From IMG/VR virus record IMGVR_UViG_3300044546_000048, positions 1 through 26,055 of that record: a DNA stretch of 26,055 nucleotides. One strand, 5' to 3'. The notes beneath the pieces were generated by a model that had not been told where the DNA came from, searched no databases, and worked only from the letters and a program-made list of their open reading frames with translations. Positions within the stretch are counted from its first letter, which is position 1, and each line of letters begins with the position of its first letter. Origin of the DNA: a virus. The position numbers were made by a program, and so were the translations under genes. Of the stretch, positions 15,887 through 24,671 are shown in pieces.

Positions 15887-16082
15887 TTGGGGTAAGGGTT
15901 TTTACTTAGGCCGGGGGGTGTTCCCTGTATGGCGATTTTTAGCCGAGTCCGCCCAATTTTTAAATTGCAAGATCGTTTGAGCAGATTAGTGTGTAGGGTA
16001 TTTCTAGGATTCCTTCTCCCCTCTTGTTGGGGTGGCACTCCGGTGGGTCACGGGTTTTGAGCTTTTTTTATCCCCTAGCACC
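15887..16082. other. Noncoding control region between late and early operons
   Basis: No gene is supported here. The stretch holds a G-run near 15911, a short palindrome CAATTT-TT-AAATTG (15954-15967) and a CCCC/GGGG hairpin (16018-16032). A packaging (cos or pac) site could lie here because the small terminase is adjacent, but no diagnostic signal is visible. Confidence 0.5.
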
Positions 16083-16093
16083 TAACAATGTTA
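16083..16093. repeat. 11-bp operator-like palindrome, copy 1 (upstream of early promoter)
   Basis: TAACAATGTTA, exact. It lies 23 bases upstream of the -35 box of the first early promoter, where a bound protein could touch RNA polymerase. Confidence 0.85.
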
Positions 16094-16116
16094 TGTAATT
16101 ATTGTTCACGCTATCC

Positions 16117-16145
16117 TTGATTTTCCCATTATTTTATGGTATAAT
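16117..16145 (+). promoter_or_regulatory. Early promoter P1
   Basis: TTGATT (16117-16122), 17-base spacer, TATAAT (16140-16145), the last preceded by TATGG as in the other two early promoters (TGTGG). It drives the single gene at 16225. It is flanked by copies 1 and 2 of the 11-bp palindrome. Confidence 0.8.
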
Positions 16146-16151
16146 ATACTC

Positions 16152-16174
16152 ATGCAAACAGATAATGATTGCAT
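16152..16174 (+). promoter_or_regulatory. 5'-terminal leader hairpin with GATAA loop, leader 1
   Basis: ATGCAA (16152-16157) pairs with TTGCAT (16169-16174); the loop contains CAGATAATG. The stem begins at the expected transcription start, seven bases past the -10. The same arrangement occurs at the two other early promoters. Confidence 0.55.
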
Positions 16175-16194
16175 CTCGGTTAGGCGGGTTTACC

Positions 16195-16205
16195 TAACAT
16201 TGTTA
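16195..16205. repeat. 11-bp palindrome, copy 2 (leader of first early gene)
   Basis: TAACATTGTTA, exact, preceded by CC. It is in the 5' leader, ending 19 bases before the ATG at 16225, between the -10 box and the gene, a position suited to repression or roadblocking. Confidence 0.85.
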
Positions 16206-16224
16206 GATTATCAGAGGTTACATC

Positions 16225-16719
16225 ATGAATCAAGTTACAGTTACTCAAGTGTCCACAGTCAACGATATCGCTGTGTTGCGTCAATCAGTCGCTGACGCTG
16301 TTGTTCGGGCTTATGGCGCTGAACGTGAGTATGCCCATGCATTGTGCAACACCTTGCCAGCCGAATGGTATCTTGTCGAACACAATGACAAGGGCGAAGC
16401 CGCCAAGCCTGTGCACGCTGAGAAAAAAGCATTGTTCGCGGTGCTCAATGCCGCCAAGCATAGTAACCCGTCAACGGTCTGGGCGCGTGTTCGTAAGTAT
16501 GCACAAGAGCACATCGAGGGCGCACCTACTAGCGAAGCCACTACAGATGACGTGGCAAGCCGCACACCCCGCACGTTGACCCTGCGCTTGATTGAGGAAT
16601 TGAGCACCTTGCACAAGGCTTGCACCAAAGCCGAAAGTCTGACAGACAAGGAACGCGACGCGCACACCTACATTGTCAGCGCATTGTCAGCGATGGGCGT
16701 GGACGTCAACACCATCTAA
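16225..16719 (+). CDS. First early gene, conserved-looking phage protein of unknown function (164 aa)
   Basis: A GAGG site precedes the ATG. The N-terminal half includes VLRQSVADAVVRAYGAERE, AEWYLVEHNDKGEAAKPV and the segment SNPSTVWARVRKYAQEH (about residues 80-96), a helix with basic residues; the C-terminal half is helical (TLTLRLIEELSTLHKACTK, later HTYIVSALSAMGVDVNTI). I recall similar proteins at the head of early regions in aquatic phages, without known function. It has its own promoter, leader hairpin and terminator and is flanked by three copies of the 11-bp palindrome. An autoregulated DNA-binding protein that recognises that palindrome is a reasonable but unproven idea. Confidence 0.85.
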   Translation: MNQVTVTQVSTVNDIAVLRQSVADAVVRAYGAEREYAHALCNTLPAEWYLVEHNDKGEAAKPVHAEKKALFAVLNAAKHSNPSTVWARVRKYAQEHIEGAPTSEATTDDVASRTPRTLTLRLIEELSTLHKACTKAESLTDKERDAHTYIVSALSAMGVDVNTI

Positions 16720-16726
16720 ACTACCG

Positions 16727-16744
16727 GGAGGGCGCAAGCCCTCC
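16727..16744 (+). terminator. GCAA-loop hairpin preceding the terminator
   Basis: GGAGGGC-GCAA-GCCCTCC is a perfect 7-bp stem with a GNRA tetraloop, eight bases after the stop of the 16225 gene. It lacks a T run and probably protects the 3' end or assists the terminator that follows. Confidence 0.65.
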
Positions 16745-16752
16745 ACCATCCC

Positions 16753-16777
16753 AAGCCCCGCTAGTCGGGGCTTTTTT
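16753..16777 (+). terminator. Strong intrinsic terminator of the first early transcript
   Basis: AAGCCCCG (16753-16760) pairs with CGGGGCTT (16766-16773) around CTAGT and leads into a run of six T. It makes the 16225 gene monocistronic. Confidence 0.92.
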
Positions 16778-16793
16778 GCGTCCGCCTCTGGCC

Positions 16794-16804
16794 TAACATT
16801 GTTA
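16794..16804. repeat. 11-bp palindrome, copy 3 (17-bp extended)
   Basis: TAACATTGTTA inside GCCTAACATTGTTAGGC, the longest symmetric version (17 bp). It lies just after the terminator of the first early gene. Confidence 0.85.
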
Positions 16805-16812
16805 GGCTTGAC

Positions 16813-16836
16813 TGATATGCTGTGAACAGCATATCA
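16813..16836. repeat. 24-bp palindrome with 11-bp perfect arms
   Basis: TGATATGCTGT (16813-16823), centre GA, ACAGCATATCA (16826-16836). The arms are perfect. Only a short T run follows, so it is a poor terminator; a dimer-binding operator or cruciform is more likely. It is unrelated in sequence to the 11-bp palindrome next to it. Confidence 0.85.
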
Positions 16837-16866
16837 CTAGATTTTGGGTTTGTCAAGGGTTTTTTT

Positions 16867-16898
16867 CTATGCCAGTTCTCAGGTCGGCGGTAGCCAGC
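16867..16898. repeat. 32-bp direct repeat, copy A
   Basis: CTATGCCAGTTCTCAGG and following bases through 16898 recur at 16987-17018 with a single difference (G/A at the fifth base). The copies are exactly 120 bp apart, and each is followed four bases later by a version of the 11-bp palindrome (16903, 17023). Confidence 0.9.
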
Positions 16899-16902
16899 GG
16901 CC

Positions 16903-16913
16903 TCACAATGTTA
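16903..16913. repeat. 11-bp palindrome, one-mismatch copy
   Basis: TCACAATGTTA differs from the consensus at one base. It follows direct-repeat copy A at the same distance as the exact copy follows copy B, so it is likely a decayed member. Confidence 0.6.
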
Positions 16914-16986
16914 GTACCTGCGTATCGGTTTGGCTTGGCCTACGTATTATCCTCAGTACACATTAGGTTTGGTTAAGACTACTTTG

Positions 16987-17018
16987 CTATACCAGTTCTC
17001 AGGTCGGCGGTAGCCAGC
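16987..17018. repeat. 32-bp direct repeat, copy B
   Basis: Same unit as 16867-16898 with one difference; followed by palindrome copy 4 at 17023. The 120-bp period suggests duplication of a larger segment whose intervening sequence has since diverged, or paired binding sites. Confidence 0.9.
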
Positions 17019-17022
17019 AAGC

Positions 17023-17033
17023 TAACAATGTTA
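17023..17033. repeat. 11-bp palindrome, copy 4
   Basis: TAACAATGTTA, exact, attached to direct-repeat copy B and directly before the cluster of GTTACG motifs. Confidence 0.85.
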
Positions 17034-17102
17034 TGTTTTTTTCAATGTTACGGGCTAATGTTACGTGCGTAACGCCCCGCAACCCGCATGAAACCTAGAT
17101 TG

Positions 17103-17113
17103 TTACAATGTTA
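17103..17113. repeat. 11-bp palindrome, second one-mismatch copy
   Basis: TTACAATGTTA, one base from consensus, overlapping a GTTACG motif. It may reflect chance overlap of the two motif types. Confidence 0.4.
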
Positions 17114-17460
17114 CGCGTTTTTCGGAAAGGGGTGCAGGTTGCCAGAAAGTTTTGAGAAGCAAAGCAAGACAGCAAGCGCATTTCATACCACGCAAACATT
17201 TTTGGACGCCATTCATTCATTCTTAAAAATCACATAACATTATAACAATACATAAAAAAACACCCCTCCACAGAGGAGAACACCGCGTTACGTTTCACGT
17301 TACGTTTACCCCCATTTCCGTTACATTTCCCCTTTTTTCATAACGCACCACACATTGCTTTCATAACACCCGCCCAACCCCCACCAAACCACCTACCATA
17401 ATAACCCTACTGCTGACCCCACTTAAAATATAACATAACTTTATAACATTGCCCCATATC

Positions 17461-17515
17461 TTTAGTCTCACCCCAGACTAAATCACTTGACAGAAGCGTA
17501 ACTTTGTGGTATAAT
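17461..17515 (+). promoter_or_regulatory. Early promoter P2 with upstream inverted repeat
   Basis: TTGACA (17487-17492), 17-base spacer, TATAAT (17510-17515): a consensus-grade sigma70 promoter. Just upstream, TTTAGTCT (17461-17468) and AGACTAAA (17475-17482) form a perfect 8-bp inverted repeat, well placed for an activator or repressor. The whole 55-base unit recurs at 19797-19851 with three differences. It drives the operon starting at 17609. Confidence 0.9.
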
Positions 17516-17520
17516 AAAGG

Positions 17521-17556
17521 TTGAACGCAGATAATGCGAGGGCGCACTACGTTCAA
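17521..17556 (+). promoter_or_regulatory. 5'-terminal leader hairpin with GATAA, leader 2
   Basis: TTGAACG (17521-17527) pairs with CGTTCAA (17550-17556); inside are CAGATAATG and a nested TGCG-AGGG-CGCA stem (17535-17546). The stem starts six bases past the -10, at the expected RNA 5' end. It shares CAGATAATG with leader 1. Confidence 0.6.
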
Positions 17557-17568
17557 TCCCAAACCGCC

Positions 17569-17579
17569 TAACAATGTTA
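17569..17579. repeat. 11-bp palindrome, copy 5 (leader of P2 operon)
   Basis: TAACAATGTTA within the 15-bp version CCTAACAATGTTAGG. It is in the 5' leader, 29 bases before the ATG at 17609, downstream of the leader hairpin. Confidence 0.88.
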
Positions 17580-17608
17580 GGTACATCAGCAAATCAGAAA
17601 GGTTAGAT

Positions 17609-17833
17609 ATGTCAGACTGGAGAGAGTGCCGTGATTGCGGCGATGACGTTCACATTGAACGCTGGAACCTAGGCTACCGACACTGCTTATTCTGCGGTGA
17701 AGAAGCCGCCCGTGTTGAGCGCATGTCTTGGTGCGTAGTCCAAGAATACGGCAAGGGTAACTACCAATTCGTAACCACTGCTAGCGCACCCACAACCCTC
17801 AAGCAGACTAATCAGAAGGAGTTACGCACATGA
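17609..17833 (+). CDS. Small zinc-ribbon protein (74 aa)
   Basis: Start at 17609 (MSDWRECRDCGDDVHIERW) follows AAAGG; an ATG at 17534 would put the leader hairpin and palindrome inside the gene and is rejected. Cysteines in CRDCGDD (residues 7-13) and CLFCGEE are spaced as a zinc ribbon. The remainder (RMSWCVVQEYGKGNYQFVT) is short and unremarkable. It is the first gene of the P2 operon and ends in an ATGA overlap with the next. Early phage zinc ribbons often act on host transcription, but no partner can be named. Confidence 0.75.
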   Translation: MSDWRECRDCGDDVHIERWNLGYRHCLFCGEEAARVERMSWCVVQEYGKGNYQFVTTASAPTTLKQTNQKELRT

Positions 17834-17916
17834 CACGCTGGGAAAAGTTCGAGCGGATTGTGTTCCTTGCTTGCCTCATCGTGGTGGCACTGGACGTTTA
17901 TTACTGGAGGCCCTAA
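17830..17916 (+). CDS. Tiny membrane peptide (28 aa)
   Basis: The frame MTRWEKFERIVFLACLIVV followed by ALDVYYWRP has one hydrophobic helix (IVFLACLIVVAL) with a basic N-terminal flank. It overlaps the zinc-ribbon gene by four bases (ATGA), and its stop TAA is the first three bases of palindrome copy 6, whose ATG starts the next gene. The gene-to-gene fit and clear membrane segment argue it is real despite its size. Possibly an inner-membrane early peptide. Confidence 0.6.
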   Translation: MTRWEKFERIVFLACLIVVALDVYYWRP

Positions 17917-17924
17917 CAATGTTA
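17914..17924. repeat. 11-bp palindrome, copy 6, forming a stop-start junction
   Basis: TAACAATGTTA: the first three bases are the stop of the 28-aa gene and bases 6-8 are the start codon of the next gene. GGAGG lies just upstream as its ribosome binding site. Confidence 0.9.
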
Positions 17925-18269
17925 GCAAGCACTATTGAACCGACAAGCTGGTTTTTTGGGTTGAACAAACCTAAGACACGTATGTTCATGCGCAAGTGGG
18001 ATGGCATACGCAAGAACGTGCGACACATGGAGGAGTCACTACTCCTGCTGATGAACAACCCAGAGACTACGCCCGAGCAATTGGTTTTAGCTAGCAAGCT
18101 ATACACAAGCGTAACGCAACAACTGCACGACCATGCCCAGATTATTGACACGTTCATTTATCACGGGCACAAACTCATGCATATGAAAAGCTGTCCAACC
18201 TACCGCACAGGTAACGAAGACCTATGCGAGTGCAAGGATTGGCAAATGGAGCCTAACAATGTTATCTAA
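17919..18269 (+). CDS. Early protein of unknown function (116 aa)
   Basis: Start is the ATG inside palindrome copy 6 (MLASTIEPTSWFFGLNKPK) with GGAGG eight bases upstream; a longer frame from 17871 overlaps the membrane peptide. The middle is helical (MRKWDGIRKNVRHMEESLL, then QLVLASKLYTSVTQQLHDH). Near the C terminus His and Cys residues cluster (HGHKLMHMKSCPTY, then DLCECKDW), perhaps a metal site. The last residues PNNVI are encoded by palindrome copy 7. No family recognised. Confidence 0.72.
   Translation: MLASTIEPTSWFFGLNKPKTRMFMRKWDGIRKNVRHMEESLLLLMNNPETTPEQLVLASKLYTSVTQQLHDHAQIIDTFIYHGHKLMHMKSCPTYRTGNEDLCECKDWQMEPNNVI
18254..18264. repeat. 11-bp palindrome, copy 7, containing a start codon
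   Basis: TAACAATGTTA encodes NNV near the end of the 116-aa protein and supplies the ATG (18259) of the next gene in another frame. GGAG lies upstream. Confidence 0.88.
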
Positions 18270-18432
18270 ATTCTTGCTCACCGGATGGAGCAACCGATTC
18301 GGCTATTGGGTAACCGAGGTGATCGAGGCCAAGGACGCAACCCTTGCCCGTGAACGCTTCACAACCAAGTACCCAACGCTGAAGAACACAAGAGCCCTGC
18401 GCCTACGCGCACCCGCCGAGATGATGGAATAA
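18259..18432 (+). CDS. Small basic early protein (57 aa)
   Basis: The frame MLSKFLLTGWSNRFGYWVT, then ARERFTTKYPTLKNTRALR, ends PAEMME. Its start is the ATG inside palindrome copy 7, so it overlaps the gene before by 11 bases. The content (aromatic N-terminal part, Arg-rich middle) recalls small phage proteins with an 'ARERF..KYP..KN.RALR' segment, but I cannot name a family. No membrane segment. Confidence 0.65.
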   Translation: MLSKFLLTGWSNRFGYWVTEVIEAKDATLARERFTTKYPTLKNTRALRLRAPAEMME

Positions 18433-18449
18433 CTAACCAAGGAACCGAA

Positions 18450-19538
18450 ATGTCATTCAATTCAACAAACAGAATACCGTACCTGCCCGGCTATACGGAA
18501 GCCAAGCACCTGCACGACAGGGTTAAACCCATCCGAGGGCACACACCCGAACTGCGCCCACTTGCTGCCCGCCGAGACAAACAGATGTCCATACGCGAGA
18601 ACCCAGAGGGACACATCGAGTGTGTCCTGTACGAGACCCCTGTTGTTACGTTTAGGCAAGATGGGGTAGTCACTGTCACTCCTGGCAAATGGCCGAGCGC
18701 ATACACAAGTTCGTTCATCGAAAACGTCCTGCCCTCAGTGCGGGTCAACCGAACACGGGACATTCTGATCGTGCGCTTGGGCGTGAAGAAGTACCCGCTG
18801 AAGCAAGGCATGAAGCTAGACCTCAAGAGAGCAGACACCAGCATTGTCCGGTGGGACGTGGTTGAGGCCGAGGGGGTCAAGGCATGGAGTCCCAGCCGAG
18901 CCAAGGCTAACAATGTTAGGTCTGCGTACAAAGAGATGCTTGCGTACCACAAGAACATGATTGCTCTGCTGTCTCAGGAAGCCGACAAGGTTGACAACCA
19001 CTACGGGGAGGTAGACCCAGACGAGCCGTTCGTAACGAAGAAGGTTGTTGTGCTGGACATGGAGGCGCTGAAGATTGCGCTTGGTACTAGGCGCGTAACC
19101 GACCAAGGATGGGGCAACAGCAAGGCGGCTGAGATAGAAGTGCTGGACATAGAGATGTTCCGCAGGATTGTGCACAAGCCAACGTGGGGTGGTAATGGCC
19201 ATGACCGAGTAGCCAAGTGGATGGAGTACAGGAACGAGGTGCTTGCACTGATGCGTGATGACCAGCCAGAAGAAACCAAGCATGCCAACTTTATGAAGGT
19301 GTCGATGGGGTTGCTGGTAAACAGGACAGGGTACGTAGCAACGCACCCGCACCACAACAGACAGACCGAGTTCCGACTCGCACGTTCGACTGCGTTAGAG
19401 GTGGTGAATGACTTCCTGACACTAGCGCATGCAGAGGACATGATGGAGTACAAGCAGTTGCCCGTAGGAAAGATACCGACTACCAACTATGCCGGTATGT
19501 TGTTCGATAACTTTAGAACTGAAGGAGAGAAAGCATGA
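18450..19538 (+). CDS. Early protein of unknown function (362 aa)
   Basis: The N-terminal part contains PYLPGYTEAKHLHDRVKPI, then a beta-rich region (GHIECVLYETPVVTFRQDG, VVTVTPGKWPSAYTSSF) that I associate with an uncharacterised phage family dealing with 'VLY.TPVVT...DG..T...G'. Residues from about 150 are mainly helical. An internal 11-bp palindrome (18908) encodes ANNVR. The C terminus overlaps the next gene by four bases (ATGA). It is the largest gene of the P2 operon and may act in DNA metabolism, but no catalytic motif is visible. Confidence 0.82.
   Translation: MSFNSTNRIPYLPGYTEAKHLHDRVKPIRGHTPELRPLAARRDKQMSIRENPEGHIECVLYETPVVTFRQDGVVTVTPGKWPSAYTSSFIENVLPSVRVNRTRDILIVRLGVKKYPLKQGMKLDLKRADTSIVRWDVVEAEGVKAWSPSRAKANNVRSAYKEMLAYHKNMIALLSQEADKVDNHYGEVDPDEPFVTKKVVVLDMEALKIALGTRRVTDQGWGNSKAAEIEVLDIEMFRRIVHKPTWGGNGHDRVAKWMEYRNEVLALMRDDQPEETKHANFMKVSMGLLVNRTGYVATHPHHNRQTEFRLARSTALEVVNDFLTLAHAEDMMEYKQLPVGKIPTTNYAGMLFDNFRTEGEKA
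18908..18918. repeat. 11-bp palindrome, copy 8 (inside a gene)
   Basis: TAACAATGTTA with flanking GG, read as xxT-AAC-AAT-GTT-A (Asn-Asn-Val) in the 362-aa gene. Confidence 0.85.
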
Positions 19539-19789
19539 AAGCAATGAACATTGGAGTGCCGACAGGCTATCGCGGGTGCATCATCGTGCCCGTCAATGAT
19601 GGGTTCGACGTGGTGGACAGAGCAAGCGGCAGGTGGATGCACGTGCCCAACCAGCGCACAGCCAAGTGGAACGCAACTGTGTGGACACGGCTACGTGATG
19701 AGTTCGACAGCCACACTCCGATCCCCCTAACAATGTTACCCACTGCGGTAGCAGAGCTAGTCACTAGGAAAACGGTGGTGATGAAGTGA
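19535..19789 (+). CDS. Small early protein of unknown function (84 aa)
   Basis: Begins MKAMNIGVPTGYRGCIIVP after a GAAGGAGAG site and overlaps the previous gene by four bases. The N-terminal half looks beta-rich (CIIVPVNDGFDVVDRASGR, then WMHVPNQRTAKWN) and the C-terminal half helical (LPTAVAELVTRKTVVMK). Palindrome copy 9 encodes LTML within it. It closes the P2 operon immediately before promoter P3; no terminator separates them, so read-through into the next operon is likely. Confidence 0.7.
   Translation: MKAMNIGVPTGYRGCIIVPVNDGFDVVDRASGRWMHVPNQRTAKWNATVWTRLRDEFDSHTPIPLTMLPTAVAELVTRKTVVMK
19728..19738. repeat. 11-bp palindrome, copy 9 (inside a gene)
   Basis: TAACAATGTTA read as xTA-ACA-ATG-TTA (Leu-Thr-Met-Leu), a different frame from copy 8. 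It lies about 60 bases upstream of the P3 inverted repeat. Confidence 0.85.
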
Positions 19790-19796
19790 GGGAGTA

Positions 19797-19851
19797 TTTA
19801 GTCTCACCCGAGACCAAATCACTTGACAGAAGCGTAACTTTGTGGTATACT
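19797..19851 (+). promoter_or_regulatory. Early promoter P3, duplicate of P2
   Basis: TTGACA (19823-19828), 17-base spacer, TATACT (19846-19851). Fifty-two of 55 bases match P2. The upstream inverted repeat is kept in altered form: GTCTC-ACCC-GAGAC (19801-19814) gains one pair and loses another compared with P2. It drives the AAA+/VWA operon. Confidence 0.9.
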
Positions 19852-19855
19852 ATAA

Positions 19856-19879
19856 GCTGATGTGGATAAACACGTCAGC
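19856..19879 (+). promoter_or_regulatory. 5'-terminal leader hairpin with GATAAA loop, leader 3
   Basis: GCTGATGTG (19856-19864) pairs with CACGTCAGC (19871-19879), nine pairs including one G-U, closing a six-base loop GATAAA. It starts five bases past the -10, at the expected RNA 5' end. Confidence 0.65.
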
Positions 19880-19890
19880 ACCAACCCGCC

Positions 19891-19901
19891 TAACAATGTT
19901 A
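19891..19901. repeat. 11-bp palindrome, copy 10 (leader of P3 operon)
   Basis: TAACAATGTTA within CCTAACAATGTTAGG, 23 bases before the ATG at 19925. Context (CCGCC before, then ATCAG and AGAAATGTCAGA) resembles leader 2, so promoter and leader appear to have been duplicated together. Confidence 0.88.
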
Positions 19902-19924
19902 GGCATCAATCAGAAGGATTAGAA

Positions 19925-20989
19925 ATGTCAGAAATCAAATTCGGTAAGAGCATCACGCTCAAGCAAGCGGCGACACTCATTCGCACCAACCCAACCACTC
20001 GGTTCCTGTTGCAGGGCGAGCCGGGCATCGGCAAGTCTTCATTGCTGGAGAGTATTGCGGCAGGACTCGGCTACGAGCATGCCTATATTGACGTACCCAA
20101 TATGGACTTGGGCGATATCGCAATGCCTGTGATCGACCACGACACCCGCACGACCCGCTACTATCCGAACGCTCGGTTCAAGATTCACGAAGGCAAGCCG
20201 CTGGTCATCATGCTCGATGAGTTCACCAAGGGTGCAGACCCAGTGAAGAACATGCTCCACCCCATGCTAGAGAAGGCTAACCCCCGACTCGGCGATATCC
20301 CGCTTACTAAAGACACCGTGGTGTTCTTGACTGGCAACTTGTCTACGGACGGCGTAGGTGACAACCTGAAAGCGCACAGCCGTAATCGACTGGTTCCGGT
20401 GACGATCAGCAAGCCTGATGCAGATCAGTGGATTGAGTGGGCTATCAACAAAGGCATTGAGCCAGAGGTGATTGCGTGGGTGAATCGGTTCCCTCATGCG
20501 ATGGCAAGCTATACGGACGCAGGTCAAGGTGACAACCCGTACATCTACAACCCGAAGCAATCGCAGAAAGCGTTTGTGTCTCCACGTTCGCTAGAAACTG
20601 CATCTAACATTGTTAGGACACGCAAGGACAACGACCCAGACACAGTGATCGCGGCGTTGACAGGTGCTATCGGTGAGTCAGCCGCCCGTGACATGCAAGC
20701 GTACATCGAGTTCTCCGACCAGCTACCCACATGGGAGGCAACGGTGTCACATCCGAAAACAACGAACATCCCTACGTCAGCAGGTGCATGTGCAATCGTG
20801 GTGTTCGGCGCTATCGCTCGGGTGGACAAGACAACTATCGGGCCGTTCATGGAGTATCTGGACAGGTTCGATGCAGAGTGGCAAGCAGTGTTCGCTATCA
20901 ACATTGCCAAGACACCAAGCAAGCAGGGCATTGCGTTCAGTTGCAAAGCCTTCTCGGATTGGGTTGCACGTAACCACGACTTGCTCTGA
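19925..20989 (+). CDS. MoxR/CobS-type AAA+ ATPase (354 aa)
   Basis: Counting from MSEIKFGKSITLKQ, Walker A is GEPGIGKS (31-38), Walker B VIMLDEF (94-100), a sensor-1-like asparagine lies in FLTGN (134-138) and a likely arginine finger in HSRNR (151-155). The order and the 'FLLQGEPGIGKSSLLESIA' opening are typical of MoxR/CobS-like ATPases, which usually remodel proteins with a VWA-domain partner; such a partner is encoded two genes downstream. An upstream GTG (19862) would put the leader hairpin inside the gene and is rejected; AGAAGGA precedes the chosen ATG. An 11-bp palindrome at 20605 encodes SNIV. All ATPase residues are intact. Confidence 0.9.
   Translation: MSEIKFGKSITLKQAATLIRTNPTTRFLLQGEPGIGKSSLLESIAAGLGYEHAYIDVPNMDLGDIAMPVIDHDTRTTRYYPNARFKIHEGKPLVIMLDEFTKGADPVKNMLHPMLEKANPRLGDIPLTKDTVVFLTGNLSTDGVGDNLKAHSRNRLVPVTISKPDADQWIEWAINKGIEPEVIAWVNRFPHAMASYTDAGQGDNPYIYNPKQSQKAFVSPRSLETASNIVRTRKDNDPDTVIAALTGAIGESAARDMQAYIEFSDQLPTWEATVSHPKTTNIPTSAGACAIVVFGAIARVDKTTIGPFMEYLDRFDAEWQAVFAINIAKTPSKQGIAFSCKAFSDWVARNHDLL
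20605..20615. repeat. 11-bp palindrome, copy 11 (inside AAA+ gene)
   Basis: TAACATTGTTA, reverse orientation, flanked by GG, read as xxT-AAC-ATT-GTT-A (Asn-Ile-Val). Confidence 0.85.
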
Positions 20990-20996
20990 GGTGACC

Positions 20997-21245
20997 GTGC
21001 CTAGCAAGTACGCATTCGTGCGTAGGCAGACAACACACGACCTTGTGCAAGCCGACAAGATTTTGTTGGCGTTGCGTACAGCGGGGCAACCCTACTACAC
21101 AGGCAAGTACGAGCTAGTGGACGTAGGGGACTACACCGCACTGCGTGGGTCTAACTACGAAGCGATCTCAGTGCACGACACATTCGAGGAGGCGAAGATG
21201 TTCGCCGACATGATTAACAAACAACGAGAGATAGAAGGAGTCTAA
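20997..21245 (+). CDS. Small protein between the ATPase and the VWA gene (82 aa)
   Basis: A GTG at 20997 (reading (M)PSKYAFVRRQTTHDLVQ) with GAGG five bases upstream is the best start; another GTG lies six bases before. No ATG is available near the 5' end. The protein has a helical first half (ADKILLALRTAGQPYYTG) and an acidic C terminus (TFEEAKMFADMINKQ, then REIEGV). Its stop TAA is the beginning of palindrome copy 12. Lying between ATPase and VWA genes, it may be an adaptor of that pair. No family recognised. Confidence 0.7.
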   Translation: MPSKYAFVRRQTTHDLVQADKILLALRTAGQPYYTGKYELVDVGDYTALRGSNYEAISVHDTFEEAKMFADMINKQREIEGV

Positions 21246-21253
21246 CAATGTTA
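21243..21253. repeat. 11-bp palindrome, copy 12, forming a stop-start junction
   Basis: TAACAATGTTA: TAA ends the 82-aa gene, ATG (21248) begins the VWA gene, with AAGGAG upstream. It has the same construction as copy 6 although the genes are unrelated. Confidence 0.92.
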
Positions 21254-22447
21254 GAAGAACGTAAATTACAGAAAGCAAAGATCACGCTCATGCGTAGCCC
21301 CAAGTTCGCATTGCTTCAGGGCGTGATGATGATTGGGCGTACGAGCGTAGTCGACAACATCCCGACCGCGTGCACCAACGGACGTGACGAAAAGTACGGG
21401 CGTGCGTTCGTAGCCGCGCTGTCGGATAAGGAACTGGCATTTCTTGTGGCGCATGAGGTGTCTCACAAGATGTACCGACATCTGACTACGTGGACAAAAC
21501 TGCACGACGAGAATCCGCATCTCGCAAACGTGGCTTGTGACTACGTTATTAACCTGATGCTCAAGGAACTCGACCCCGCCGAGGACATCATTGCTATGCC
21601 TGTGTACAAGGACGGGCCACTCAAGGGTCAGCGCATGGGTATGTACGACCCTAAGTACAAGGGCATGAACTCCAAGCAGGTGTTCGACCTACTCAAGCAA
21701 GAGCAGGAGAAGAACGGCGGAGGCGGCAGTGGTGAAGGCATTGACGACCACGATTGGGATGGTGCGAAGGAGATGAGCGACGAGGACAAGAAGGTACTCG
21801 AGCGTGAGATTGACCAAGCCATTCGGCAGGGACTGATGGCGCATGAGAAGGCGCATGGCAAGGGTGGGGGTGGTATCGGGCGTGAGATTGACGAGCACCT
21901 TGAGCCGAAGATCAACTGGCGCGAGGAACTGCGTGAGTATGTGAAGGCAACGTGTAGCAACAAGGACACGTCCTCATGGCGCAGGGTGAATCGCAGGTTC
22001 CTGACTACGGGTACGTACATGCCGAGCATGATCGGCGAGAAGGTTGGGCACATTGTCGTAGCCATAGACACGTCTGGGTCTATCGGTGGGCGTGAGCTTA
22101 ACGAGTTCTTGGCCGAGGTGAAGGGTGTGGCCGAGGAGGTCAACCCAGAGATCGTTGACCTGATCTATTGGGACGGTGAAGTGGCAGGGCATGAGAAGTA
22201 CGAGGGTGCGGAGGTATCTAACATTGTTAGCTCAACCAAGCCCAGAGGTGGTGGAGGCACTGACCCTAGTTGCGTATCCATACATCTGCGTGACAACAAC
22301 ATCAAGCCCGAGTGCGTCATCGTGTTGACTGACGGGTATGTACCGAACTGGGGTAGTGAGTGGACTGCACCGACTATGTGGGTAATCACAGGAGGGAATA
22401 CCAATGCGGTTTCGGACAATGGTCGAACAATTCATATTAAAGATTAA
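21248..22447 (+). CDS. HEXXH metallopeptidase-like plus VWA domain protein (399 aa)
   Basis: The N-terminal domain has LAFLVAHEVSHKMYRH (about 63-78) with HEVSH as a zinc-binding HEXXH, followed by NVACDYVIN (94-102), as in the DUF2201-type putative metallopeptidases. A Gly-rich, charged linker (155-215) leads to a VWA domain with MIDAS residues in AIDTSGSIG (272-280), GGTDP (336-340) and VLTDGY (359-364). All metal-binding residues look intact. Together with the AAA+ ATPase two genes upstream this forms a MoxR-VWA pair, a class of protein-remodelling machines. Whether the peptidase domain is active, and on what, is unknown. Confidence 0.9.
   Translation: MLEERKLQKAKITLMRSPKFALLQGVMMIGRTSVVDNIPTACTNGRDEKYGRAFVAALSDKELAFLVAHEVSHKMYRHLTTWTKLHDENPHLANVACDYVINLMLKELDPAEDIIAMPVYKDGPLKGQRMGMYDPKYKGMNSKQVFDLLKQEQEKNGGGGSGEGIDDHDWDGAKEMSDEDKKVLEREIDQAIRQGLMAHEKAHGKGGGGIGREIDEHLEPKINWREELREYVKATCSNKDTSSWRRVNRRFLTTGTYMPSMIGEKVGHIVVAIDTSGSIGGRELNEFLAEVKGVAEEVNPEIVDLIYWDGEVAGHEKYEGAEVSNIVSSTKPRGGGGTDPSCVSIHLRDNNIKPECVIVLTDGYVPNWGSEWTAPTMWVITGGNTNAVSDNGRTIHIKD
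22219..22229. repeat. 11-bp palindrome, copy 13 (inside VWA gene)
   Basis: TAACATTGTTA, read as xxT-AAC-ATT-GTT-A (Asn-Ile-Val) between the MIDAS strand and the GGTDP loop. Confidence 0.85.
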
Positions 22448-22457
22448 GGGGTACGAG

Positions 22458-22706
22458 ATGGTAGTAGTTGACTTAGGGTATCGCAAGGTTGTGCTTACCA
22501 AAGAAAAGGCATTGCAACTGATCGAGTGTTTGGAGAACGCCGAGCAGTACGAGGATAAGTACTGGAGCGAAACCAAGCGCAAGGAGTTGAACATAGAGGG
22601 GCCGTACACCTACCACGTGTACCCGCTTGATGGGGGTTTCACTATGACCATATTGGGTGACACCAAGTATCAACTGGCTAAGTTAGCCGGTAAACCAACG
22701 GAGTGA
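22458..22706 (+). CDS. Small phage protein with YHVYP motif (82 aa)
   Basis: Start at 22458 (MVVVDLGYRKVVLTKEKAL) follows AAGGGG after the VWA stop; an ATG at 22404 inside the VWA gene has a strong AGGAGG and could add 18 residues. The order LGYRKVVL, ALQLIECLENAEQYEDKY, YTYHVYPLDGG, YQLAKLAGKP matches a small family frequent in aquatic phages, function unknown. Gene order suggests it belongs to the P3 operon and is translated after the VWA protein. Confidence 0.72.
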   Translation: MVVVDLGYRKVVLTKEKALQLIECLENAEQYEDKYWSETKRKELNIEGPYTYHVYPLDGGFTMTILGDTKYQLAKLAGKPTE

Positions 22707-22708
22707 GT

Positions 22709-22879
22709 ATGAAAACGTTTGAAGTGGAACTGCGCCGCACAAGCTACATCACTATGACTGTAGAGGCGGAGAACGAGGACGATGCCGAGACTAAAGCATG
22801 GGCACAGATCGAGGCCGACAACGTGAACATCAACGATGCGTCTTGGGACGTTGAATCAGTCGAAGAAATTTTTAACTAG
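22709..22879 (+). CDS. DpnD/PcfM-like small acidic protein (56 aa)
   Basis: The frame MKTFEVELRRTSYITMTVE, then AENEDDAETKAWAQIEADN, ends VESVEEIFN. The 'F.V......Y...TVEAENEDDA...A' pattern is that of the DpnD-PcfM-like family of small acidic proteins, which occur in mobile elements but have no settled role. GGAG lies six bases before the ATG, and the gene exactly fills the space between its neighbours. Strong negative charge could make it a DNA-mimic or protein partner; that is speculation. Confidence 0.7.
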   Translation: MKTFEVELRRTSYITMTVEAENEDDAETKAWAQIEADNVNINDASWDVESVEEIFN

Positions 22880-22891
22880 CAGGAGTAAATC

Positions 22892-23740
22892 ATGAGTATT
22901 AGTGCATCAGCAGTGTTAGTAGAGTTGAACATCAGCGTGTGGCCAGCGTCTAAGTTAGATCGGGACGCCACAACACAAGTGAATACGGACGCATCAGCAG
23001 TCGTTGACGCAGCGCGTGTCCACAAGAATCTATTCGCAGGTACGAACTTGCGTAAGGAGATCGAGAACTTTGCGGCCAAGGTTCGGCTGTATCACAACCA
23101 ACGCACATTACCTTGGGCAGACAAGGGTGAGCGCATGTTGCCGACTGCCTTGTTTATGGAATACAAGCAGACCATGAACGGGTACGAGCAGACGTTCAAC
23201 ACAATGTGCGATGCGTTCTTCCACGCATACCCCGACCTAGTAGCAGATGCGCCTATCCACCTAGGCAAGATGCACAGGGTCGAGGACTACCCAGAGCTTG
23301 AGGAAGTGAAGCTGAAGTTCGGGTTCCGCAGAACAGTCAAGCCTGTGCCAGAGGCGGGAGACTTTCGACTGGACATACCTGCGAATGACTTGGCCGAGAT
23401 GCAAGCAGAGTTTAATGTGCAACAGACTAGCAAGCTGGCAGACGCTATGCGCGAGCCGTGGGAGCGACTGCATGAAATGCTAGTAGGCATGTCCAAGAAG
23501 CTGGACGACACATCGGGTGGTAAGAAGCGATACCACGACACACTGGTGAGTAACCCGCTTGAGCTTTGCTCATTGCTTACCAAGATGAACGTGACCAATG
23601 ACCCCAAGTTAGAGGAAGCACGTAAGGAGCTAGAGCTAACAATGTTAGGTACAAACATTGAGGCTATCAAGGAAGACGAGTATCACCGCACCGAGGTCAA
23701 GGCCAAGGTCGATGCAATCATTAAAAAGTTTGAATGGTAA
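22892..23740 (+). CDS. DUF3150-like protein (282 aa)
   Basis: The N terminus MSISASAVLVELNISVWPA, then SKLDRD, and the later segments RLYHNQRTLPWADKGERML, MEYKQTMNGYEQTF and PVPEAGDFRLDIP match the DUF3150 pattern, a helical protein of unknown function. In integrative elements such proteins occur beside CobS/MoxR-like ATPases and VWA proteins; here all three share one operon, which supports the call. Palindrome copy 14 encodes LTML near the C terminus. AGGAG precedes the ATG. It is probably part of the ATPase-VWA machine, as substrate, adaptor or scaffold. Confidence 0.78.
   Translation: MSISASAVLVELNISVWPASKLDRDATTQVNTDASAVVDAARVHKNLFAGTNLRKEIENFAAKVRLYHNQRTLPWADKGERMLPTALFMEYKQTMNGYEQTFNTMCDAFFHAYPDLVADAPIHLGKMHRVEDYPELEEVKLKFGFRRTVKPVPEAGDFRLDIPANDLAEMQAEFNVQQTSKLADAMREPWERLHEMLVGMSKKLDDTSGGKKRYHDTLVSNPLELCSLLTKMNVTNDPKLEEARKELELTMLGTNIEAIKEDEYHRTEVKAKVDAIIKKFEW
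23637..23647. repeat. 11-bp palindrome, copy 14 (inside DUF3150-like gene)
   Basis: TAACAATGTTA followed by GG, read as xTA-ACA-ATG-TTA (Leu-Thr-Met-Leu), the same frame as copy 9. Confidence 0.85.
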
Positions 23741-23750
23741 GGAGTAGATC

Positions 23751-24632
23751 ATGGACGCAAAAGCCGCAATGCAGATGAGTAACGTAGTCCTCAGCGATAA
23801 GCTGTTGGAAGGTAAACGTAAGTCTGATGTTGATATCAGAGTAAACGCACCCCTGCATGAAATCATGTGGAAGGTAGTCACCGAGAACCCAACGTGGGAG
23901 TTCCGAGTGGGCACGGGTCGCAACGAAGTATCCCGTGATGTAGTCGACAGAAGTGTCGTAGGTGTACGGTTGAACAGATTTGATGTGTTCAAAGACAACG
24001 AGCAGATAGGCAGTATCGGGCGCAACTATCGGTCTACCCGCATGGGTGGTGACTACGTGTTCGCTATCAGCAGTAACGCACTCAAGAACGAACGAGAGCG
24101 TAACAGCGAGTACTGCACTAAGGATGCTAAGAAAGCCCTAGCCGCCATTAAGAAGACGTTCTCGAACAAGAGCATGAGTGAGCGTATGAACGAGGCGCTC
24201 AACCGTGCCGCACAGGTTATCAGTAACGAGCGTAACTCTAAATCGCATAACGCCCACAGGTACATGCAAAAACTGTCTCCTACCCTATCTTCTTTTGCGT
24301 TCATAACTATGCAGAAAGAGTTCGAGGCATACGCACAGAGCGTGGGTATGGGCACAGTGTTGGATGAGTACCACAACGCCCAGCTTCAGATGATGACTGT
24401 AGATGCAATACAAAACAAGTTCAACACTGTTGAAGCAACGCATCTAGTGTTATCTCTTGGGGGTAAGTACGTAGTTAAAACAGGTGACAAGATAGATATC
24501 TACGATGATAATACGCTCCCCGTAGAGATGCGGGGCAAGCTAGGCATGCTCAAGCTCGTAGAGCCAGAGCAGATGATCGAAGGCGTAGGTTGCCGAGCAA
24601 CTACCGAAGTCTTTGTCTTACTCGCCGAGTGA
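23751..24632 (+). CDS. Early protein of unknown function (293 aa)
   Basis: Starts MDAKAAMQMSNVVLSDKLL after AAGGAG, ten bases behind the DUF3150-like gene. The N-terminal half is mixed (IMWKVVTENPTWEFRVGTG, then VGVRLNRFDVFKDNEQIGS, a beta-hairpin-like section), the middle is helical and basic (KKALAAIKKTFSNKSMSER, then NRAAQVISNERNSKSHN). The C terminus contains THLVLSLGGKYVVKTGDKI. No catalytic motif is recognised. Its position ties it to the ATPase-VWA operon, and it may be a partner. It contains no 11-bp palindrome. Confidence 0.8.
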   Translation: MDAKAAMQMSNVVLSDKLLEGKRKSDVDIRVNAPLHEIMWKVVTENPTWEFRVGTGRNEVSRDVVDRSVVGVRLNRFDVFKDNEQIGSIGRNYRSTRMGGDYVFAISSNALKNERERNSEYCTKDAKKALAAIKKTFSNKSMSERMNEALNRAAQVISNERNSKSHNAHRYMQKLSPTLSSFAFITMQKEFEAYAQSVGMGTVLDEYHNAQLQMMTVDAIQNKFNTVEATHLVLSLGGKYVVKTGDKIDIYDDNTLPVEMRGKLGMLKLVEPEQMIEGVGCRATTEVFVLLAE

Positions 24633-24649
24633 GAACTGGCATAACGACA

Positions 24650-24660
24650 TAACAATGTTA
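24650..24660. repeat. 11-bp palindrome, copy 15 (before a small gene)
   Basis: TAACAATGTTA followed by GGAG, 11 bases before the ATG at 24672, so a bound protein would cover the translation start region's DNA. It is the last copy in the window. Confidence 0.85.
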
Positions 24661-24671
24661 GGAGATTAGAA

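Follow-up and report, generated by a model that had tools for sequence, protein, structure and literature searches.

Genes gp24 and gp25 of phage N4 are core genes of N4-like phages and in N4 are carried on middle transcripts (PMC4193335), and our literature searches found no functional study of either. A MoxR ATPase paired with a metallopeptidase-vWA protein is also known from group 2.2 jumbo phages, for which a role in virion assembly has been proposed, with Acidianus two-tailed virus as the model (PMC7824862, PMC4124505). For NorQD, target remodelling requires both an intact ATPase and an intact VWA MIDAS; in the proposed mechanism the MIDAS binds the target while a 'finger' of the VWA protein occupies the ring pore (PMC9976466). 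Here we analyse a viral locus in which an earlier note had recognised a MoxR/CobS-like ATPase, a metallopeptidase-VWA fusion and a DUF3150-like protein. The note overlooked that the ATPase/VWA half had been described before, in N4-like phages (PMC4193335) and in jumbo phages (PMC7824862). We add the third gene and a comparison across phages and plasmids.

The locus lies in IMG/VR record IMGVR_UViG_3300044546_000048, whose 26,055 bases we refer to as the window; the three genes of interest (the trio) occupy positions 19925-23740. The head, portal and terminase genes are on the minus strand and end at 15.8 kb, and a plus-strand block made up mainly of small genes starts at 16 kb. It is this second block that houses the trio, which is divergent from the structural genes, outside their block and on the opposite strand. 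Immediately 5' of the ATPase gene is a near-consensus sigma-70-like promoter (TTGACA-17-TATACT, the -10 being preceded by TG; 19823-19851, plus strand, 11 of 12 consensus bases), called by consensus match only, in a scan that as a whole yields no more sites than shuffled sequences. A perfect sigma-70 consensus with the TG extension (TTGACA-17-TATAAT, 17487-17515) is found 5' of a 99-aa ORF at 17534. The palindrome CTAACA(A/T)TGTTAG has 17 matches with up to two mismatches, compared with 0.38 expected, spanning 16082-24661 (for example at 16194, 17568, 19890, 20604, 21242, 22218 and 23636). All but one of these are within the non-structural block, both intragenic and intergenic, and several positions are conserved in relatives at about 70% protein identity, such as those near +745 of the third gene and just 5' of the VWA start codon. 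These palindromes are possibly dispersed operator- or stoperator-like sites.

The first gene of the trio (ATG at 19925, stop ending at 20989; plus strand, as are all genes described below) encodes a MoxR-type AAA+ ATPase of 354 aa. It matches AAA_5 in Pfam (28.0 bits, cut-off 22) and phrog_1297 in PHROGs (E=5.6e-49), has a Walker A motif (GEPGIGKS), a Walker B DE and conserved sensor-1 N138 and R155, and has a VWA partner encoded nearby; the Walker motifs are intact in the ATPases of 50/50 relatives. The MoxR part of the original description thus stands, while 'CobS-like' is too specific, because the CobS and CbbQ_C domains are unmatched. More broadly, Pfam gave no CobS, CobT, CobT_C or CbbQ_C match in the window's proteins, and identity with CobS/CobT of the cobaltochelatase CobNST was rejected, as domain support is absent.

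The second gene (21248-22447) encodes a 399-aa protein of the N4 gp25 family, in which a DUF2201 metallopeptidase-like domain is fused to a VWA domain. It matches PF13203 (DUF2201_N; 93.3 bits, cut-off 23.2), PF09967 (DUF2201; 59.0 bits, cut-off 26.4) and phrog_1314 (E=1.5e-90). The zinc-peptidase motif HEVSH (residues 69-73, 21452-21466) and the MIDAS, formed by DTSGS (residues 274-278, 22067-22081) and completed by T338 (22259-22261) and D362 (22331-22333), are both intact, as the earlier note had read them. Among full-length relatives the HExxH is intact in 62/62 and the MIDAS in 62/62, and residues N94, A96 and D98 downstream of HEVSH are likewise invariant. A predicted model of the VWA domain fits known VWA folds (Z 12.5, rmsd 2.9, 159 residues). 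Many phage records, some of them in RefSeq, name the phrog_1314 protein 'HNH endonuclease'; since only DUF2201 domains exceed their cut-offs in the window member, this label looks like a propagated misannotation.

The third gene (22892-23740) encodes a 282-aa protein whose relation to DUF3150 is remote. It has no Pfam match at E<=1, and the PF11348 model found nothing in five relatives' records. Aligned by hhalign to PF11348-type proteins, its profile reached a probability of 79.8, rising to 89.5 with a larger alignment (pairwise E 2e-6, score 52.5); decoys reached at most 20.5 when column-shuffled, 32.8 when block-permuted and 19.3 when reversed, and neighbouring families at most 21.3. Formal membership of Pfam DUF3150, for which the curated cut-off is not reached, was therefore rejected, and what we retain of the 'DUF3150-like' label is remote homology, with a profile-profile score well above the decoys.

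Among cultivated phages, MinM2 is the sole tblastn relative of the third protein at E<=1e-5; its protein is annotated DUF3150 and is identical to that of Pag-Yong1 and Pra-JY27. Three records with an identical third protein and an equal length of 65,014 (OQ594354, OL906435 and PP438419) probably represent one phage, and the hosts they name differ (Synechococcus, Planktothrix and Planktothricoides). The predicted model of the window's third protein (mean pLDDT 82.8, pTM 0.59) has N-terminal beta elements followed by long helices. It matches viral proteins, one of them named DUF3150, and Foldseek gave no match in the PDB at E<=0.001. A new fold is unsupported: the matches are to helical bundles only, the best with Z 10.4 over 94 residues, a range common for such bundles. 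A PDB sequence search with the profile of this protein returned nothing meaningful, and a literature search did not find a paper containing 'DUF3150'.

To see how the three genes travel together we used the third protein as query against IMG/VR, which gave 188 stretches, of which 80 loci were kept. Where the stretch leaves room, the third gene of these uncultivated relatives is accompanied by the VWA gene in 57/57 loci, by the MoxR ATPase in 43/43 and by the gene of a 293-aa protein (23751-24632 in the window), which always lies 3' of the trio in this clade, in 77/77. As these phages are related to each other, independent lineages matter more. MinM2-type phages carry all three genes in the order MoxR-DUF3150like-VWA, and so do plasmids of Robbsia, Simplicispira and Rhodovastum. 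The third gene is present in 31/299 Burkholderiaceae genomes, and in nearly all of the loci opened both partners adjoin it. A first profile scan of genome contigs with a phage-led alignment found nothing, and among 398 genomes sampled across the phylum the third gene was present only in the one already known, so that it is seemingly rare outside Burkholderiaceae. On IncC, SXT-type and other MOBH elements, true DUF3150 genes are accompanied by an AAA+ ATPase and a VWA protein, which likewise has HExxH.

The module observed in the window is therefore confirmed. The earlier note had proposed that the three genes form one module and had tied this to their recurrence elsewhere; they recur together in relatives, in plasmids and in MinM2-type phages. 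Its statement that integrative elements have similar ATPase/DUF3150/VWA sets proved right, and such sets are also on conjugative elements. Of the two further partners it had listed, the 82-aa gene (20997-21245) could be identified in no more than 10 loci of the relatives and is thus an accessory rather than a core member, while the 293-aa gene is constant and fast-evolving. Two more accessory ORFs, of 100 aa (22404-22706) and 58 aa (22703-22879), are recognised in 33 and 7 loci, respectively.

The pair of ATPase and peptidase-VWA genes, which belongs to the core gene set of N4-like phages, is found in hundreds of phage records: the VWA fusion was matched in about 700 and the ATPase in 322 of 50,697. 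Eight phage neighbourhoods were opened (N4-like Ab2712, LIT1, CB4 and SBP1; Thermus phiFa; Bacillus phage G; PA5oct; rv5-like A51.2), and all eight have the pair with intact HExxH. No DUF3150-like match was seen within the stretches examined around these pairs, and searches of the whole records of Ab2712, LIT1 and phiFa did not find such a gene.

A tree of the VWA proteins places the window clade with the N4-like pairs (96/83) and not with the plasmid trios, while MinM2 groups with the Rhodovastum plasmid (97/98). The latter grouping recurs in the MoxR tree (99/95, together with the MinM2-like L146), which is otherwise poorly resolved and has long branches. The joining of MinM2 with the Rhodovastum plasmid suggests exchange between phage and plasmid. 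With the window VWA protein siding with the N4-like pairs and the MoxR tree poorly resolved, a single origin of the trio as a unit is unsupported, and gain or loss of the third gene may have happened repeatedly.

All three proteins are under strong purifying selection. Against close relatives, dN/dS was 0.03-0.07 for the ATPase, 0.07-0.09 for the VWA protein and 0.03-0.06 for the third protein. Against one relative, G001, it was 0.041, 0.072 and 0.051, respectively, comparable to the major capsid protein (MCP, 0.051), portal (0.047) and terminase (TerL, 0.090), while neighbouring genes reached 0.47 (362 aa), 0.28 (293 aa) and 0.19 (100 aa); the ratios are approximate, since several of the comparisons have a dS close to 1 or higher, and the contrast is still large. 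The trio thus appears as a constrained machine amid fast-evolving neighbours. The 362-aa (18450-19538) and 293-aa proteins flank the trio, their positions kept, and neither has a family match at E<0.01 in Pfam or PHROGs.

Where the trio acts can be approached through phages with homologous virion genes. The sister phages DSL-LC04, HTVC027P, CRP-902 and 023Pt, whose terminase (35-57% identical in the records listed) and portal (identity about 40-44%) are homologous, have none of the three genes, whereas MinM2 has them all. The presence of the trio on conjugative plasmids and its absence, as a block, from sisters with the same virion genes make the question of its function testable, and point to a shared intracellular task of mobile DNA, probably work on proteins or DNA complexes, rather than to particle building. 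The gene context points the same way. In G001 the trio reads towards a block of DNA polymerase, exonuclease, helicase and primase genes, the N4-like pair is followed by helicase and DNA polymerase genes, and the IncC/SXT-type sets adjoin ssb-bet/RecT-exo. In SXT the recombination operon, which starts at s089, is driven by Ps089, a strong SetCD promoter (PMC4344509, PMC4542580), and this promoter region is the strongest of those bound by SetCD (PMC4344509); judging by gene order, the SXT trio would be part of this operon. The Robbsia plasmid trio departs from the pattern, adjoining PRTRC and T4SS genes. Together with the distribution, the neighbourhoods opened speak more for work inside the cell, close to DNA metabolism, than for virion assembly.

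We propose, with somewhat less than even confidence, that the trio is an ATP-powered remodelling machine that works inside the cell, most likely on a replication- or recombination-linked complex of invading DNA. The proposal builds on what was observed: which genes are present and that the three are linked, that their catalytic and metal-site residues are intact and under strong purifying selection, and that the trio is independent of virion type; complex formation and ATP-driven remodelling are inferred from analogous systems. By analogy with NorQD and RavA-ViaA, the ATPase would form a ring and serve as the motor, the VWA domain would be an adaptor whose metal site grips the target, and the DUF3150-like protein would be a third subunit, probably one that recognises the target. 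The HEXXH domain on the adaptor is a putative peptidase, recognised by its motif, that would probably cut or clip the engaged target; our literature searches returned no account of such activity in any member. The module is encoded with non-virion, presumably early or middle, genes, and its target would most likely be a protein complex tied to replication or recombination of invading DNA. Action on such complexes would explain why phages and plasmids share it. A bolder form of this proposal, in which we have rather low confidence, is that the trio is an ATP-dependent protease of new architecture, exchanged between phages and conjugative plasmids, in which a MoxR ring would pass targets, picked by a DUF3150-like receptor and gripped at the VWA metal site, to a zinc peptidase that is part of the adaptor, and so clear or reshape protein complexes on incoming DNA.

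The earlier note had suggested dismantling of a host complex, activation of a phage enzyme or counter-defence, and none of these was established. Best placed among the alternatives, though still unlikely, is counter-defence or host takeover, in which the trio would disassemble or cleave a complex of the host, defensive or regulatory, that phages and plasmids both encounter. Its sharing between phages and conjugative plasmids, its patchy, all-or-none presence among sister phages and the DarB-like antirestriction protein also carried by G001 agree with this, and the fast-evolving 293-aa neighbour could be a variable specificity partner. (The DarB-like relative is a 1102-aa ORF, at 279-3584 of L188.) However, the rate at which the trio evolves is as low as that of capsid genes, as one would expect of a conserved machine more than of a protein directly engaged in an arms race, and PADLOC found nothing in the window beyond generic ATPase similarity. 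Action on a conserved host target is possible.

A chaperone with peptidase for virion assembly or maturation, as proposed for jumbo phages (PMC7824862), is improbable. The precedent from Acidianus two-tailed virus is a tail role inferred for p618/p892, which have no peptidase domain (PMC4124505). Selection on the trio is as strong as on virion genes, and the PA5oct ATPase is tagged ESI-MS/MS in its record, a tag also used there for structural proteins, which hints at virion association in that phage. Weighing against assembly are the four sister phages without the trio, the plasmids that carry it and make no virions, its position outside the structural block on the other strand, and the mass-spectrometric table of virion proteins of N4-like RPP1, which in the accessible part of its report has no homologue of N4 gp24/gp25 among its entries (PMC4193335).

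Very unlikely is a role like that of NorQD or CobST, in which the trio would insert a metal cofactor and thereby activate a metalloenzyme of phage or host: this is what NorQD and similar MoxR-VWA pairs do (PMC9976466), and CobT- and CbbQ-type domains are present in the IncC/SXT version, but the window's proteins have neither CobT nor CbbQ_C, and no common metalloenzyme gene was seen in the neighbourhoods of MinM2-type phages and of the Robbsia, Simplicispira and Rhodovastum plasmids. Least likely of all is a weapon or exclusion system against competing elements: MoxR-vWA ternary systems with a third component have been described as conflict systems, but with variable effector domains (PMC7159879), whereas the three proteins here vary little and are under strong conservation, and Pfam, in which the third protein has no match at E<=1, recognised no domain of VMAP type.

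Several known systems come close to the remodelling machine proposed here. Gp24 (ATPase) and gp25 (vWFA) of N4-like phages belong to the same ATPase and metallopeptidase-VWA families (PHROGs 1297 and 1314) and are encoded near each other, but a DUF3150-like gene is absent from the two N4-like records searched whole, and the virion is of another type. The pair of group 2.2 jumbo phages has the same domain fusion and partner as the window, and the accessible part of its report describes no third component (PMC7824862); the virion-assembly role proposed there is disfavoured for the window's clade by the distribution seen here. Profiles assign the Burkholderiaceae plasmid trio to the families of the window proteins (E about 1e-53 to 1e-124), and all three components of the Rhodovastum trio align to the window families; in both, the order is MoxR-DUF3150like-VWA, compared with MoxR-VWA-DUF3150like in the window, and the third protein has 27-28% identity to the window's. 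The IncC/SXT-type MOBH set (for example in pAR060302 and pR997) likewise has three components, among them a VWA protein with HExxH and MIDAS and a third protein that is remotely homologous to the window's and is itself a full Pfam DUF3150. It differs in its CbbQ-type (CbbQ_C) ATPase, clearly related to the window's by profile (97.6), and in its CobT-type VWA protein, which aligns to the window's only over the HExxH region. The trio is thereby tied to a DUF3150 cluster, itself uncharacterised, on elements of clinical importance, IncC and SXT.
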